Assembly (NCBI GenBank): GCA_903884005.1
Contig: CAISDA010000040.1
Span: 65,539 to 129,538, forward strand
Direction: 5' to 3'
Source: an uncultured Ignavibacteriota bacterium
GTDB taxonomy: Bacteria; Bacteroidota; Ignavibacteria; UBA10030; UBA8401
Length of the DNA: 64,000 bases
How positions within the stretch are numbered: position 1 is the first letter of the stretch; each line of letters opens with the position of its first letter. The notes beneath the pieces are model-generated. The model saw only the letters and a program-made list of their open reading frames with translations, did no database searches and was not told where the DNA came from. Below are positions 25,564 through 56,688 of this stretch, piece after piece. Position numbers and translations under genes: made by a program.

Positions 25564-26685
25564 ATGAAAATAGGAATCACCTGTTACCCCACCTACGGCG
25601 GCAGCGGTGTCGTTGCGACCGAACTGGGAAAAGCCTTGGCGAAACGCGGTCATCAGATCCACTTCATCAGTTATGCCATGCCCATGCGCCTGACCGGGTT
25701 CGTGGAAAATATTATGTACCACGAAGTCGAGAGCGCTTCCTATCCATTGTTCGAATTTCCGCTTTATACGCTCTCTCTGGCGAGCAAAATGGTCGAGGTG
25801 GCGACGTTCGAACAGCTCGATCTTCTGCATGTGCATTATGCGATTCCCCATGCCACCAGCGCCTATCTTGCAAAACAAATGCTCGGCGACCATAAATTCA
25901 AGATCATCACAACGCTGCACGGCACCGACATCACGCTTGTGGGACTGGAGCCGAGCTTTCTGCCCGTGATGAAATTCAGCATTGAACAAAGCGACGGGGT
26001 CACTGCCGTGAGCCGGTTCCTCCGGGAAAAAACGATCACCAATTACAATATCGACAAAGAGATCGAGGTGATCCCGAACTTTATCGACCCGGATGCCTAC
26101 AAGCGCGTGACGACCAATTGCGTGAAAAAACGTTTTTCGCCGCACGGCGAGAAACTGCTTATGCATGTCTCCAACTTTCGCGCCGTGAAACGTGTCCACG
26201 ATGTCGTCCGCATCTTCGCCCTTGTCCTGCAACGCATTCCCTCCACGCTCGTCTTGATCGGCGACGGGCCGGACCGTTCCTCGTGCGAAAGTCTTTGCCG
26301 CGAATTGGGCATTGCCGACAATGTGAAATTTTTAGGAAAACAGACGGAATTAGCCGACCTGCTCTCGTGCGCCGATCTGTTTTTAATGCCCAGTCAGTCT
26401 GAAAGTTTCGGACTCTCGGCGCTTGAAGCGATGGCGTGTGAAGTGCCCGTAATCTCCAGCAGCGTGGGCGGACTTCCGGAACTTGTGGAACACAATAAAA
26501 CAGGGTACATCGCGGAGATCGGCGATGTGGAACGGATGGCCAAATATGCCGTCGATCTGTTAAACAATCCTGTTAAGCACCAGGCATTCGCCGCCGCCTC
26601 TCGAAAACGCGCCGAGGACCTCTTCAACGAAGAACTCATCGTGTCGCAGTACATCCGGTACTACGAAAAAATACTCGCCCAATAA
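25564..26685 (+). CDS. bshA: BshA, N-acetyl-glucosaminyl L-malate synthase (bacillithiol biosynthesis)
   Basis: 373 residues of a GT4 glycosyltransferase. The N-terminus MKIGITCYPTYGGSGVVATE and the motifs LLHVHYAIPHATSAYLA and LHGTDITLVG are diagnostic of BshA. The GT-B C-terminal domain shows SNFRAVKR, LIGDGPDR, and ESFGLSALEAMACEVPVIS with the E-x7-E nucleotide-sugar motif. It joins GlcNAc to L-malate as the first step of bacillithiol synthesis. No bshB or bshC is in this window. Its last two codons fall in the first unit of a 34-bp tandem array. Confidence 0.93.
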   Translation: MKIGITCYPTYGGSGVVATELGKALAKRGHQIHFISYAMPMRLTGFVENIMYHEVESASYPLFEFPLYTLSLASKMVEVATFEQLDLLHVHYAIPHATSAYLAKQMLGDHKFKIITTLHGTDITLVGLEPSFLPVMKFSIEQSDGVTAVSRFLREKTITNYNIDKEIEVIPNFIDPDAYKRVTTNCVKKRFSPHGEKLLMHVSNFRAVKRVHDVVRIFALVLQRIPSTLVLIGDGPDRSSCESLCRELGIADNVKFLGKQTELADLLSCADLFLMPSQSESFGLSALEAMACEVPVISSSVGGLPELVEHNKTGYIAEIGDVERMAKYAVDLLNNPVKHQAFAAASRKRAEDLFNEELIVSQYIRYYEKILAQ

Positions 26686-26816
26686 TGACGGCGGCTGCAG
26701 GTTTTTCCTCGCCCAATAAAGACGGCGGCTGCAGGTTTTTCCTCGCTCAATAATGACGGCAGCTGCAGGTTTTTCCTCGACCAAAATTTACGGCAGCTGC
26801 AGATTTTTTCTCTCCC
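26681..26816. repeat. Four 34-bp tandem repeats spanning two convergent gene ends
   Basis: Units at 26681-26714, 26715-26748, 26749-26782 and 26783-26816, each with the core ACGGCGGCTGCAGGTTTTTC or a close variant. Unit 1 contains the bshA stop codon and unit 4 the reverse-strand stop and last codons of the PpiC-like gene. Units 2 and 3 lie in the 102-bp gap. Confidence 0.92.
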
Positions 26817-28335
26817 AAAAATTCACCCACTGTATGTCGGGTTCGGTCACGGGAACGGCAAACATGCGCCCTCCGAATCCGAGATACCGGTACACCATGG
26901 CCGGTACTGTGCTTACGGTGATACGGGATAAGTTCTTTTCATAGACGGCGATGCCGTATTTGTCTGCAAGCTTGCCGAGTATCCTATCCGATGTGTACCG
27001 CAGTTTCATGGCGATCACCGAAGCGCACGCTTTCGAGGTATCCTGCGCGGAGAGTGTATCGGTATGCATGCGCCATTTTTCGTTTTCCACTTCCTGCGGC
27101 GATGCGGTGAGTGTGTCGGCGATCGTGTTCTTATAGAGCTGTGCAAGATACCAATCCCTCCACGGCCCAAGTTCTTTTTGTACGGCAGTCGAGTGTTGCA
27201 ACTGCCGCTCATATCCGATCTGCGTCAGGTGTTCCTGGTCGATGAGGTCATGAAGGCGCTGTTCGTAGCCGAACCTGACCGTAGCGAGCGTTGGTCGTTC
27301 GATGCTGAGCCCGGCCGTGCGCATCTTCTCGAGCGTCGTTTCAAGCGACCATTGCCCCTTCGGGAAACGTACATACGGTTGTCCGGCCATCTCCCGGTTC
27401 TGTCCGAGCACAACCTCCACCAGATCGCGTGTCAGGAAAAAAGTCGTGGTGTCCGATTGCGCTGCACCTGACGGCAGCGACGCGCGGTATGCGTCGTAGA
27501 GCCCGGTGATGGCCGCCTTCGTTGCTTTGGCGTTGATCTCCGTGCGTGCGGTCTTCAATGCCTCGGCTATGAACGCAAACATCCGGTGTTGTTCCTTGCG
27601 CTTGCGCAGCGTCTGCTCGACCCTCTCCTGCAAAGAGCGGCGTTGTTGTTCACCGCCGAGGACCGTGATGCTCTTTCCCATCAGTTTCGGAATGTAGTAC
27701 CCGTCGTCCAGGTGCACCGGGGGGCCGGTCTGATTCAATTTCAACGAGTAGACGGCCGCTTCCATCTTCTCATCGGCATCTCCCCATCTCGTGATCGCCG
27801 AATCGGGCCCATCCCAGCTCGATCGCGGGCCCTTTACAGCGGTCAATGACTCGAGCGCTTTCCCGGTACGAATGAGAGCGAAGAGCGAATCGGCTGTCGC
27901 TTTGTTCGAGGCGTAGAGAAAATACACCTTCAAGTCCTGCTGAGCCATGGCCATGGCCTGCTGTCGTTCCACATCGCCGATTGTGACCTTCTCCCGCACT
28001 TCCCTTCGATACAGTTCATCGCGCACAAAGAGACGCTCCACGCCGTGCACCGCCTTCAGCAGCGTCGAATCCCTGTCCAAGCTGCGTTCGCGCGCCTGCA
28101 GGGCGAGCAATTTTTCTGCGATCAGCGTGAAAAGAAATTCAGCCTTCCTCTCGTCCGTCTTCGCGACGTTATGGCGCTGTAAACCGGGCGTCAATTCGTA
28201 GCGCGAGATAAATTCGCCCGCGGTGATCGTCTGTGTGCCGACACGGGCTATGGGCGTTTCATGCGGAAGGTTCTGTTGCGCCGCGAGACGCACGACAGAC
28301 GCGATGACGAGCGTGAGTATGGAGAGTCGTTTCAT
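26788..28335 (-). CDS. Exported SurA/PpiC-type peptidyl-prolyl isomerase-like chaperone
   Basis: 515 residues with a signal peptide ending near VRLAAQ. An N-terminal SurA-like helical part follows (PIARVGTQTITAGEFISRY, EFLFTLIAEKLLALQA). A parvulin-type region lies at about 120-240 (LKVYFLYASNKATADSLFALIRTG as two pieces, WGDADEKMEAAVYSL, PPVHLDDGYYIPKL), and there is a long helical C-terminus. It probably helps fold outer-membrane proteins in the periplasm. The parvulin part is divergent and isomerase activity is uncertain. Its last codons (NLQLP) are encoded by the fourth unit of a tandem repeat. Confidence 0.82.
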   Translation of the reverse strand: MKRLSILTLVIASVVRLAAQQNLPHETPIARVGTQTITAGEFISRYELTPGLQRHNVAKTDERKAEFLFTLIAEKLLALQARERSLDRDSTLLKAVHGVERLFVRDELYRREVREKVTIGDVERQQAMAMAQQDLKVYFLYASNKATADSLFALIRTGKALESLTAVKGPRSSWDGPDSAITRWGDADEKMEAAVYSLKLNQTGPPVHLDDGYYIPKLMGKSITVLGGEQQRRSLQERVEQTLRKRKEQHRMFAFIAEALKTARTEINAKATKAAITGLYDAYRASLPSGAAQSDTTTFFLTRDLVEVVLGQNREMAGQPYVRFPKGQWSLETTLEKMRTAGLSIERPTLATVRFGYEQRLHDLIDQEHLTQIGYERQLQHSTAVQKELGPWRDWYLAQLYKNTIADTLTASPQEVENEKWRMHTDTLSAQDTSKACASVIAMKLRYTSDRILGKLADKYGIAVYEKNLSRITVSTVPAMVYRYLGFGGRMFAVPVTEPDIQWVNFWERKNLQLP

Positions 28336-52670: not shown

Positions 52671-53609
52671 TTAATGTGTTGCTTTCATAGAGTCCGCTAT
52701 TGTCATGGCGATCTCTCCGATCTGTGTCTCGTCAGAGATCGGGTACCAGCGTATGCGGGCGTCGGGTCGGAACCATGTCAATTGTCGCTTTGCGAAACGG
52801 CGCGTGTTCTGTTTCATCAATTCAACCATGCGATCATACGTCAGGCCGTGTCGAATGTATGTGAACGCTTCCTTGTAACCGACTGTCTGCAATGATTTAA
52901 ATCGTTCATCGTATCCCATTTCAAGCAGACGCCGGACCTCGTCCACGAATCCGGCATCGAGCATCCGGTCCACTCTGCGATCGATCCTGTCGTACAACAC
53001 CTTCCTGTCCCAGGCCAAGCCGGCAAACACGGCGTCGTACAATTGATCGCGCTGCTGTTGTTGGTGGTGAACGGTGATCGGAACGCCGGTGATGTAATAG
53101 ACTTCCAGCGCGCGTATGATGCGGCGGATATTGGTGGGAAGCATCCGTTGCGCTGCAGCGGAATCGACCGCGCGCAGGTTCTCTAATAATTGAGCGCCTC
53201 CCTCATGCTCAGCCTTCTCTTCCAAGCGACGGCGGAGCTCGGGCTGTATCGGAGGCCCCTCGAACAATCCATCGACCAGCGACTCGACATACAATCCGGT
53301 GCCTCCTGCAACGATCGGGAGTCGCTTGCGAGCAATGAGGTCTGCGATGACCCTGCGCCCCTGTTCGGCGAAATCGCCCGCCGAAAAATGGCAATCGGGA
53401 TCGAGCATGTCGATGAAATGATGGGGAACCTTCTGTAGTTCGTCCTGTGAAGGCTTTGCTGTTCCTATGGTGAGATGTTTATAGATCTGTCTCGAGTCGG
53501 CCGAAAGGATCTCTGCAGTGCTATGGCTCGCAATCTCCAGCGAGAGTGCGGTCTTTCCGGATGCGGTCGGACCGACGATGCAGAGTATGTGAGGAAGGTC
53601 GGGCTTCAT
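52671..53609 (-). CDS. miaA: tRNA dimethylallyltransferase MiaA
   Basis: 312 residues from MKPDLPHILCIVGPT. A GTG four codons earlier overlaps the pcm stop by 4 bp and is the alternative. P-loop GPTASGKTALSLEIA, ILSADSRQIYKHLTIGTAKP, HHFIDMLDPD, VAGGTGLYVESLVDG, TNIRRIIRALEVYYITG, and FAKRQLTWFRPD at the C-terminus. It adds dimethylallyl to A37 of UNN-reading tRNAs. It directly follows pcm on the same strand. Confidence 0.96.
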   Translation of the reverse strand: MKPDLPHILCIVGPTASGKTALSLEIASHSTAEILSADSRQIYKHLTIGTAKPSQDELQKVPHHFIDMLDPDCHFSAGDFAEQGRRVIADLIARKRLPIVAGGTGLYVESLVDGLFEGPPIQPELRRRLEEKAEHEGGAQLLENLRAVDSAAAQRMLPTNIRRIIRALEVYYITGVPITVHHQQQQRDQLYDAVFAGLAWDRKVLYDRIDRRVDRMLDAGFVDEVRRLLEMGYDERFKSLQTVGYKEAFTYIRHGLTYDRMVELMKQNTRRFAKRQLTWFRPDARIRWYPISDETQIGEIAMTIADSMKATH

Positions 53610-53617
53610 GTGTTCGA

Positions 53618-54250
53618 TCACCAGGCGTTCTTTCCGATGAGGGGAACGAATTTAAATCCGGTTTCTTTCTGCAGAATATACTCCCCGCCAGTCCTGGTCA
53701 GGATCATGATCGTTTGCTCCTGCTTGTCTCCCACCGGTATCACCAGCCGACCTCCTTCGGCCATCTGGGCCTTGAGGGGTTCCGGAATTGTCGGTGAACC
53801 CGCAGTGACGATGATACCGTCGTAGGGGGCATAATCAATCCATCCGAGCGTTCCATCCCCCGCTTTGGCAAGCACGTTTAAGTGGAGCTGGTCGAACATC
53901 TTCCGTGCCGTGTCCAGCAGTCCGAGATGACGCTCAACGGTGTAGACGCGGCATCCCATTGCCGCCAGCACCGCTGCCTGATACCCGGAGCCGGTTCCGA
54001 TCTCCAGTATTTTATCGCCTCGTTTCACGCAGAGGGCCTGGGACATGAATGCCACGGTGTACGGCTGCGAAATCGTCTGGTCGAATCCGATCGGGAGCGC
54101 TGTGTCTTCATACGCCTTGGCGACGAAGAGAGGCCCCACAAATTTATGGCGTTCAATTTTTCCGATCGCACCAAGGACGTTCTCATCGCTGATGCCGCGC
54201 GTGCGCAACAGTTCCACTAATTCCTGGCGTTCAATATCAAATCGTGTCAC
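53618..54250 (-). CDS. pcm: Protein-L-isoaspartate O-methyltransferase
   Basis: 210 residues from a GTG (VTRFDIERQELVELL read as Met). A GTG 13 codons earlier overlaps the glycosyltransferase end and gives an atypical N-terminus. SAM-binding motif LEIGTGSGYQAAVLA, preceded by the family block SQPYTVAFMSQAL. Further motifs are VYTVERHLGLLDTARKM and DGIIVTAGSPTIPEPL. The terminal region carries LVIPVGDKQEQTIMILTR. The enzyme methylates isoaspartyl residues in aged proteins. It lies between the GT2 gene and miaA on the same strand. Confidence 0.94.
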   Translation of the reverse strand: MTRFDIERQELVELLRTRGISDENVLGAIGKIERHKFVGPLFVAKAYEDTALPIGFDQTISQPYTVAFMSQALCVKRGDKILEIGTGSGYQAAVLAAMGCRVYTVERHLGLLDTARKMFDQLHLNVLAKAGDGTLGWIDYAPYDGIIVTAGSPTIPEPLKAQMAEGGRLVIPVGDKQEQTIMILTRTGGEYILQKETGFKFVPLIGKNAW

Positions 54251-54269
54251 GAGAAAATGGTATCCTTTA

Positions 54270-54929
54270 CTAGTCCGCCAGCAGAACACTGATGAATCGT
54301 TTGGTGGTGTGCCAATGGGTCATCGTGCTCTTTTCACCGGCGTAAATTGTTTCGATCGGCAGCGATGCGAACGTGAAGCCCAGCGCCGAGGCGCGGATGA
54401 TGAATTCGGTCTCCGCTTCGAATCCGGAAGACAACGCGCGGACACGCTTCAGGACGCGGGTGTCAATGAAACGGAATCCCGATTGGCTGTCCTCGATCGA
54501 TGCCGATGTGCGCGCACCGACCAAAAAGGTGGTCATCAGGTTCGAGACGCGGCGGTGATACGGCATGCCCGTCAGCGAATGGAGCCTGCTGCCGATGATG
54601 ATGTCTGCATGAGACGTGCCGAAGGCGAGCAGAAATCTCGGGATATCTTCGGGCTTGTGCTGGAGATCCGAATCCATGGTAATGACGGCGTCATACCCGC
54701 ACTCCAATGCACGATCGAAGCCGGACTGGAGCGCCGCCCCCTTCCCCCGATTGGCCCCATGGGAAATGAGAACTGCTCCCGATGCACGCACGAGCGCCCC
54801 TGTGCCGTCGAGAGAACCATCATCGACGACGATCGTGTGTTCCAGGGGATGAACGAGACTGGTGCGCCGCAGCACTTCAACGATCGACGATGACGCATTG
54901 TACGCCGGTATAATGACTGCGCTGTTCAT
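54270..54929 (-). CDS. Family 2 glycosyltransferase (DPM1/polyprenyl-phosphate type)
   Basis: 219 residues, GT-A fold. Start IIPAYNASSSIVEVLRR, LEHTIVVDDGSLDGTGALVR (first Asp pair), GANRGKGAALQSGFDRA, VITMDSDLQHKPEDIP (DxD-like), IGSRLHS, and DSQSGFRFIDTRVL. These match dolichyl/polyprenyl-phosphate mannosyl- or glucosyltransferases, but no C-terminal membrane helices are present. It probably glycosylates a lipid carrier or surface polymer; donor unknown. The 5' end is duplicated upstream between it and cdaA. Confidence 0.88.
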   Translation of the reverse strand: MNSAVIIPAYNASSSIVEVLRRTSLVHPLEHTIVVDDGSLDGTGALVRASGAVLISHGANRGKGAALQSGFDRALECGYDAVITMDSDLQHKPEDIPRFLLAFGTSHADIIIGSRLHSLTGMPYHRRVSNLMTTFLVGARTSASIEDSQSGFRFIDTRVLKRVRALSSGFEAETEFIIRASALGFTFASLPIETIYAGEKSTMTHWHTTKRFISVLLAD

Positions 54930-55020
54930 AACGACGACTCCGGCCGCAGCGCTTCAACGATCGACGATGACGCATTGTACGCCGGTATAATTACTGCGCT
55001 GTTCATAATGACGACTCCGG
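54913..55020. repeat. 77-bp tandem duplication at the cdaA-glycosyltransferase junction
   Basis: The block including GACGACTCCGGCCGCAGCGC, the glycosyltransferase start and its first 17 codons occurs twice, offset by 77 bp (ATG codons at 54929 and 55006). The copies differ at only a few positions (for example TAATGAC versus TAATTAC). Confidence 0.93.
54926..55006 (-). CDS. 26-residue chimeric mini-ORF from a 77-bp tandem duplication
   Basis: The ATG at 55006 overlaps the cdaA stop (ATGA). Its own TGA overlaps the glycosyltransferase ATG in the same way. The first 17-18 residues are the start of the glycosyltransferase (MNSAVIIPAYNASSSIV), and the last nine are the end of CdaA (EALRPESSL). 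The two overlapping stop-start joints mean ribosomes leaving cdaA can pass through this short frame and then enter the glycosyltransferase. The peptide itself probably has no function. Whether it is translated is unknown. Confidence 0.6.
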   Translation of the reverse strand: MNSAVIIPAYNASSSIVEALRPESSL

Positions 55021-55824
55021 CCGCAGCGCTTCTTTAACGGTGGTGATGGAACGTTGCACCGACAACACGAGTCGTTCGCGAAGCTCTTTGCGCAATTCCT
55101 GCGCGGATAATTTGCGGATCAGGAACCCGTTTTCGGCAAGCGATATCGTTCCCGTCTCTTCCGAAATAATGACGGCAATGGCATCGGTCTGCTCAGAAAT
55201 GCCGAGTCCCGCGCGGTGCCGCATGCCCAGCACGATGTCGCCTATGCGCGTATTGGCCGAGAGCGGCAGCGTGCAGCGCGCCGCTTCGATGATCTGGTCG
55301 TTCACGACCACAGCGCCGTCGTGCAGCGGTGCGCGCGGATTGAAGATCGCAAGCAATAGCGAGCGGCTGATCTGCGCGTTAAGCCGGATACCGGTCTCGA
55401 CGAACGACTTCATGCCCGCGCCTCGCGACACGACGATGAGCGCCCCCTGCCTCTTCTTCGAGAGTTCTGCGGCGGCGCTTGCGATTTCCTCGATCGATTC
55501 GTTGACATTGAGGCGCAGGAACATCCGTACAAATCTGTTCCGAGCCACCTGCGACAAGATGCGGCGTATTTCCGGTTGGAAGAGAATAATGAAACCTACA
55601 ACCCAAATGTCCGTGAGCGTCTGCAGTATCCATCCCATCGCCTTCAGGTTTCCCGCTCTCGACACAAACGACAGCGCAATGATCACCATCAGGCCGATGA
55701 AAATCTGCACAGCAACCGTTCCGCGCATCACCACATAGAGACGATAGACGATGAACGCGACAAGCGCGATGTCGATGCAATCGATCAGCGTTACGGTGAT
55801 AAATCCGATCCTGAATAATTCCAT
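55003..55824 (-). CDS. cdaA: Diadenylate cyclase CdaA (c-di-AMP synthase)
   Basis: 273 residues. Three N-terminal membrane helices (about 10-95: VTLIDCIDIALVAFIVYRLY and following). The DAC domain at about 100-260 has both catalytic motifs: LHDGAVVV (DGA) and GMRHRAGLGISE (RHR), with ISEETGTISLAENG nearby. It condenses two ATP to cyclic di-AMP at the membrane, a second messenger for osmotic and envelope control. Placed 18 bp after folP, as is common in Bacteroidota relatives. Its 3' end is part of the tandem duplication. Confidence 0.95.
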   Translation of the reverse strand: MELFRIGFITVTLIDCIDIALVAFIVYRLYVVMRGTVAVQIFIGLMVIIALSFVSRAGNLKAMGWILQTLTDIWVVGFIILFQPEIRRILSQVARNRFVRMFLRLNVNESIEEIASAAAELSKKRQGALIVVSRGAGMKSFVETGIRLNAQISRSLLLAIFNPRAPLHDGAVVVNDQIIEAARCTLPLSANTRIGDIVLGMRHRAGLGISEQTDAIAVIISEETGTISLAENGFLIRKLSAQELRKELRERLVLSVQRSITTVKEALRPESSL

Positions 55825-55842: not shown

Positions 55843-56688
55843 TCATGCGTGGAGCACGGCATCGGTCATCAGAGCGACACGCTTGATCTGTTTCACATCG
55901 TGGACTCGCACAATGTTCGCTCCGTTCATGATCGCGATGGCGGTGGTCGCGCTTGTGCCGTCGAGTCGGTCCTCGATTGTCGTCGAGGTCGCCGTTCCAA
56001 TGAATCCCTTGCGCGAAGTGCCGACGAGAATCGGGCAGCCGATGTCCTTCAGGCTTCCAAGATGTTTCAGCAGCAGAAGGTTGTGATGGTAATTTTTGCC
56101 GAATCCGAAACCGGGATCGATAATAATGGATCGCACACCCGCAGCCCGTGCCGCCTCGACCCGCAGTGATAAGTGCCGCTTCACGTCGGCGACGACATCC
56201 TCATATTGCGGATTGTCCTGCATCGTTGCCGGTGTGCCTTGTATATGCATGAGAACCAGCGTGGCGCCATGGCGCGCAACAACATCACCCATCAGAGGAT
56301 CGAACGTCATGCCGCTGATATCATTGATGATATCGGCTCCAGCCAGTAACGCCGCCTCGGCTACATCCGATTTGTACGTATCGACGGACAGCAGGAAGTC
56401 CCCTGCGTTCCGCAGTTCCTTCAGCACGGGCAGAATACGGTCCAATTCTTCCCCTGCTGAAACGTGAGAAGGGCTGCTGCCATACGCGCCTTTCGGCCGC
56501 GTAGACTCTCCGCCAATATCAATGATGTCCGCCCCGTCCTCGATCATTGCGCGGGCGTGTGCTGCGGCCCCTTCAACGGAAAAATACATGCCTCCGTCTG
56601 AAAAGGAATCGGGCGTCACATTCACGATTCCCATAACCAGCGTGCGCTTGGAACAATCGATTTTTTTCGAGCCGATGCACAGTTCCAT
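55843..56688 (-). CDS. folP: Dihydropteroate synthase
   Basis: 281 residues. Family motifs: MGIVNVTPDSFSDGG, IIDIGGESTRPKGA (pterin site), DTYKSDVAEAAL, INDISGMTFD, LMHIQGTPATMQ, IIIDPGFGFGKNYHHNLLLL, GTSRKGFIG, and VRVHDVKQIKR at the end. It joins p-aminobenzoate to dihydropterin pyrophosphate in folate synthesis. A terminator separates it from the small basic protein gene upstream, so it likely has its own promoter. cdaA follows 18 bp later. Confidence 0.96.
   Translation of the reverse strand: MELCIGSKKIDCSKRTLVMGIVNVTPDSFSDGGMYFSVEGAAAHARAMIEDGADIIDIGGESTRPKGAYGSSPSHVSAGEELDRILPVLKELRNAGDFLLSVDTYKSDVAEAALLAGADIINDISGMTFDPLMGDVVARHGATLVLMHIQGTPATMQDNPQYEDVVADVKRHLSLRVEAARAAGVRSIIIDPGFGFGKNYHHNLLLLKHLGSLKDIGCPILVGTSRKGFIGTATSTTIEDRLDGTSATTAIAIMNGANIVRVHDVKQIKRVALMTDAVLHA

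Follow-up and report, generated by a model that had tools for sequence, protein, structure and literature searches.

A 77-bp tandem duplication lies at the junction between cdaA and a downstream family 2 glycosyltransferase (GT2) gene, hereafter GT, on the minus strand of the window (the whole stretch of 64,000 nucleotides analysed here), and it leaves a chimeric mini-ORF of 26 codons between the two genes. The best explanation is a single, lineage-specific duplication through short homology, by slippage or illegitimate recombination, with the mini-ORF as an automatic by-product and with probably nearly neutral consequences; we give this reading a probability of about 0.88. On the minus strand the genes follow one another in the order folP-like gene, cdaA, GT, PCMT gene and IPP transferase gene, and the features discussed below are as follows.

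56688..55843, minus strand: folP-like gene (Pterin_bind), upstream of cdaA
55824..55003, minus strand: cdaA, diadenylate cyclase with CdaA_N and DAC domains, 273 aa, complete
55020..55032, minus strand: 13-bp homology GAAGCGCTGCGGC in cdaA (codons E-A-L-R), the cdaA-side endpoint
54943..55019, minus strand: cdaA-proximal copy of the 77-bp unit (cdaA 3′ end, then most of the mini-ORF), from repeat search and TRF
55003..55006, minus strand: ATGA overlap of cdaA stop and mini-ORF start
55006..54926, minus strand: mini-ORF, 26 codons, chimeric (GT N-terminus and CdaA C-terminus), product MNSAVIIPAYNASSSIVEALRPESSL
54866..54942, minus strand: GT-proximal copy of the 77-bp unit (mini-ORF end, then GT 5′ end), from repeat search and TRF
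54926..54929, minus strand: ATGA overlap of mini-ORF stop and GT start
54929..54270, minus strand: GT gene (GT2), 219 aa, complete
54866..54878, minus strand: 13-bp homology GAAGTGCTGCGGC in the GT gene (codons E-V-L-R), the other endpoint, matching at 12/13 positions in the same codon phase
54289..53618, minus strand: PCMT gene, after GT
53621..52671, minus strand: IPP transferase gene, after the PCMT gene

The two copies lie head to tail and are identical at 74 of 77 positions (96%). TRF reports 2.2 copies with a score of 313, the strongest tandem array of the window, and another 13 bases, 55020-55032, match the beginning of the unit, the full array thus extending over 54866-55032 (167 bp). 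An earlier note on this DNA had proposed a 77-bp tandem duplication of the cdaA end and the start of the next gene, which we confirm at 54866-54942 and 54943-55019, as we do the 26-codon frame joining a GT N-terminus to a CdaA C-terminus (55006..54926); the span that it gave, 54913-55020, falls within the array and covers only part of it. Because the junction sequence matches just once in the genome, a reading as a dispersed element was dropped. The cdaA and GT proteins are complete and unaltered by the duplication. A literature search of titles and abstracts found no relevant description of the cdaA-GT-folP arrangement or of the mini-ORF.

The endpoints of the duplication point to its origin. 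In the single-copy junction, which we approximated by the present sequence minus one copy, GAAGCGCTGCGGC of cdaA and GAAGTGCTGCGGC of GT lie exactly 77 bp apart, and an enumeration of every endpoint pair across the junction for unit lengths of 30-200, 17,784 in total, ranked this pair as the best 13-mer match (12/13). CdaA proteins of the family carry KEAIRPQ or similar at the position of KEALRPES in the window, and the GTs of the family carry LLERT or similar at the position of VLRRT; since relatives have such CdaA tails and GT starts at these places, both homologies are native to their genes and not products of the duplication. At the variable base of the homology the middle copy has the cdaA version; this is consistent with a crossover at the left side of the homology or with a subsequent change in GT. 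Small variable segments with flanking repeats of <30 bp have been ascribed to replication slippage or short-homology illegitimate recombination (PMC2884548), and we infer that one such event, involving GAAGCGCTGCGGC close to the cdaA end and GAAGYGCTGCGGC close to the GT start, would have doubled the 77 bp between the two homologies in the window lineage only.

As the two homologies occupy one and the same codon phase within their respective genes, the extra copy would have been open automatically: its mini-ORF begins at the duplicated GT start and runs to the duplicated cdaA stop, where it overlaps the start of GT once more. The enumeration agrees with this: 5,876 of the 5,985 in-phase junction duplications give an intact chimeric ORF that opens at the GT start of the copy and closes at its cdaA stop, against 0 of the out-of-phase ones, so that intact-chimera endpoints make up 33% of all 17,784. 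An in-phase duplication therefore accounts for the chimeric sequence and for both ATGA joints with no further assumption, and the open frame, being its near-automatic result, is no sign of selection; intactness of the mini-ORF as a mark of selection is ruled out by these counts.

Comparison with relatives, for which one genome per species of the family was used, places the event in the window lineage. cdaA was found in 20 of 22 genomes, with GT directly downstream in all 20; a GT homologue is present even in the two genomes of genus g8 (1.7 Mb) that gave no cdaA match. Offsets between the cdaA stop and the GT start range across the family from overlaps to about 26 nt, TAATG being the most frequent form. 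The direct-repeat score of the junction is 81 in the window (period 77) versus at most 9 in the 19 other genomes, and the duplication and its mini-ORF are absent from all 19 other family genomes with cdaA, the sole congener included. That congener (G001; n = 1, genome 71% complete) shares 92% amino acid identity with the window in cdaA and 73% in GT, and its junction reads ...GCAGAATCGTAACCATGAAC... with no extra copy, which suggests that the duplication most likely arose after the two species split. Loss in the congener instead of gain in the window lineage is formally possible, given that this one 71%-complete genome is the only congener compared. Conservation in related genomes, as expected of a conserved regulatory leader or relay ORF, was not found, the mini-ORF being absent from all relatives; a conserved leader peptide is ruled out in the same way, and this comparison lends no support to the functional role that had been suggested for the mini-ORF.

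How the junction might still be translated can be judged from its architecture. Each joint is an ATGA overlap, as the earlier note had correctly described, 4 nt long and between co-directed genes, and would in principle allow coupling; GGAG stands 8 nt upstream of each ATG (mini-ORF and GT), so that the GGAG-ATGA start site has been copied whole. Termination-reinitiation is known to fall sharply with distance, requiring overlaps or very short gaps, such that a gap of ~20 nt nearly abolishes coupling, and the last 15 nt of the upstream reading frame are enough for it (PMC10666635). Since reinitiation is nearly lost at ~20 nt, a frameless gap of 73 nt would be expected to uncouple GT; an in-phase mini-ORF would preserve the chain of overlaps, which may plausibly explain how the duplication came to be tolerated. 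Ribosomes leaving cdaA could restart on the mini-ORF and then again on GT, in which case the insertion would probably be nearly neutral. With both genes intact and the start site duplicated whole, coupling through the mini-ORF probably persists and the change is probably near-neutral. The GGAG site may count here, as SD-like motifs upstream of the first ATG of long ORFs are moderately enriched in the window genome (20% vs 9% in shuffles).

The same architecture could be read as regulatory: the mini-ORF would adjust GT expression relative to cdaA, and the duplication would have been retained for this effect. It would act either by reducing ribosome delivery through an additional termination-reinitiation step or by providing a second internal initiation site. 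The intact ATGA joints, each ATG preceded by its GGAG, agree with such tuning, and a 26-codon relay is mechanistically possible given the need for overlaps or short gaps and the sufficiency of 15 nt (PMC10666635). However, no relative conserves the mini-ORF, its open frame is forced by the in-phase duplication, and folding predictions show no consistent change in how accessible the GT start is relative to the single-copy arrangement, with predicted unpaired values of 0.35 vs 0.23 in the long fold and 0.42 vs 0.45 in 100-nt folds. A structure-mediated change at the GT start was rejected on these inconsistent folds. Regulatory tuning is possible, if quite unlikely, and we found no positive support for the proposal that the mini-ORF tunes expression of the downstream gene: the mini-ORF is an automatic, non-conserved by-product, and the GT initiation region keeps its sequence and, by prediction, a similar local accessibility. 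We consider it very unlikely that the mini-ORF is a newly born relay cistron, in which a duplication with its own start and stop keeps the genes coupled though 77 bp further apart and is retained because it resets the ratio of GT to c-di-AMP cyclase.

The copies differ at three positions: 54874/54951, which falls within the flanking 13-bp homology, and 54915/54992 and 54932/55009, which lie outside it (2 in about 64 bp) and are both synonymous in the mini-ORF frame. The GT of the congener likewise has GTC valine codons at the sites of these two synonymous differences. A pair of sites is too small a sample for inferring constraint; synonymy would be expected anyway if the changes hit the cdaA or GT copy. 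The two differences outside the homology suggest a duplication that is young, yet not brand-new. The recent origin suggested earlier is fair, but only in a relative sense, as some time has passed. For the short-homology duplication this persistence is a counterpoint, since tandem repeats collapse easily. The differences also bear on an assembly or binning artefact, in which the extra copy would be absent from the organism: the assembly is a draft of 89 contigs, but copies that differ at three positions are unlike a simple assembly duplicate, and the array is short (167 bp) and interior to a 194-kb contig, making an artefact highly improbable. That the 26-aa peptide is itself a functional small protein has a negligible chance, since for all its complete ORF and plausible start site it has no Pfam match, is just the first stretch of a GT2 domain with the CdaA tail, and has no counterpart in any relative.

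Short tandem duplications are ordinary in the window genome, and the junction array stands out only in that it straddles a gene overlap. In a 378-kb sample made up of the whole of contig C40 and part of C6, eight places hold tandem arrays whose period is at least 30, others of 75 and 78 bp among them; apart from the junction array, short arrays with periods in the range 34-78 bp appear at ~1 per 47 kb. Within the window, a 34-bp unit (CTCGCCCAATAATGACGGCAGCTGCAGGTTTTTC) is repeated 4.4 times at 26674-26822, between convergent genes. The array extends from the end of a 373-aa ORF that resembles a glycosyltransferase to within the 3′ end of a 515-aa ORF; it contains AGCTGCAGG and T-runs and is possibly terminator-like. 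On C6, two 43/44-bp arrays ~9 kb apart (locus L122, 7663-7761 and 16795-16892) have the common motif GGGCGAGATAACAG, which suggests a small dispersed repeat family, and at 152752-152913 (locus L129, 12752-12913) the 3′ end of a 562-aa ORF contains a G+C-rich 78-bp unit repeated 2.1 times with 88% matches. On C40, at 159281-159761 (locus L119, 19281-19761), a 683-aa ORF carries two arrays, 42 bp × 2.2 and 75 bp × 3.1, the latter 99% identical; as both periods are multiples of three, its product is probably a repeat-bearing protein of variable length.

The cdaA/GT junction offers a worked example in which in-phase duplications (one in three) across an ATGA overlap almost always leave an intact mini-cistron with both overlaps kept. 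Annotated mini-ORFs of this kind are, without conservation, not evidence of function, and the example may show why such insertions are tolerated inside operons. In its 4-nt ATGA overlaps of co-directed genes, the junction resembles gene pairs coupled by termination-reinitiation; it differs from them in that the middle cistron is a 26-codon by-product and not a conserved gene. The closer likeness is to short-homology tandem duplications, with which the array shares head-to-tail copies, short direct homology at the endpoints (13 bp, 12 matching), found at both ends and between the copies, and restriction to one lineage. Compared with the usual case, its only peculiarity is its in-phase position across a start/stop overlap, which leaves an intact chimeric frame.
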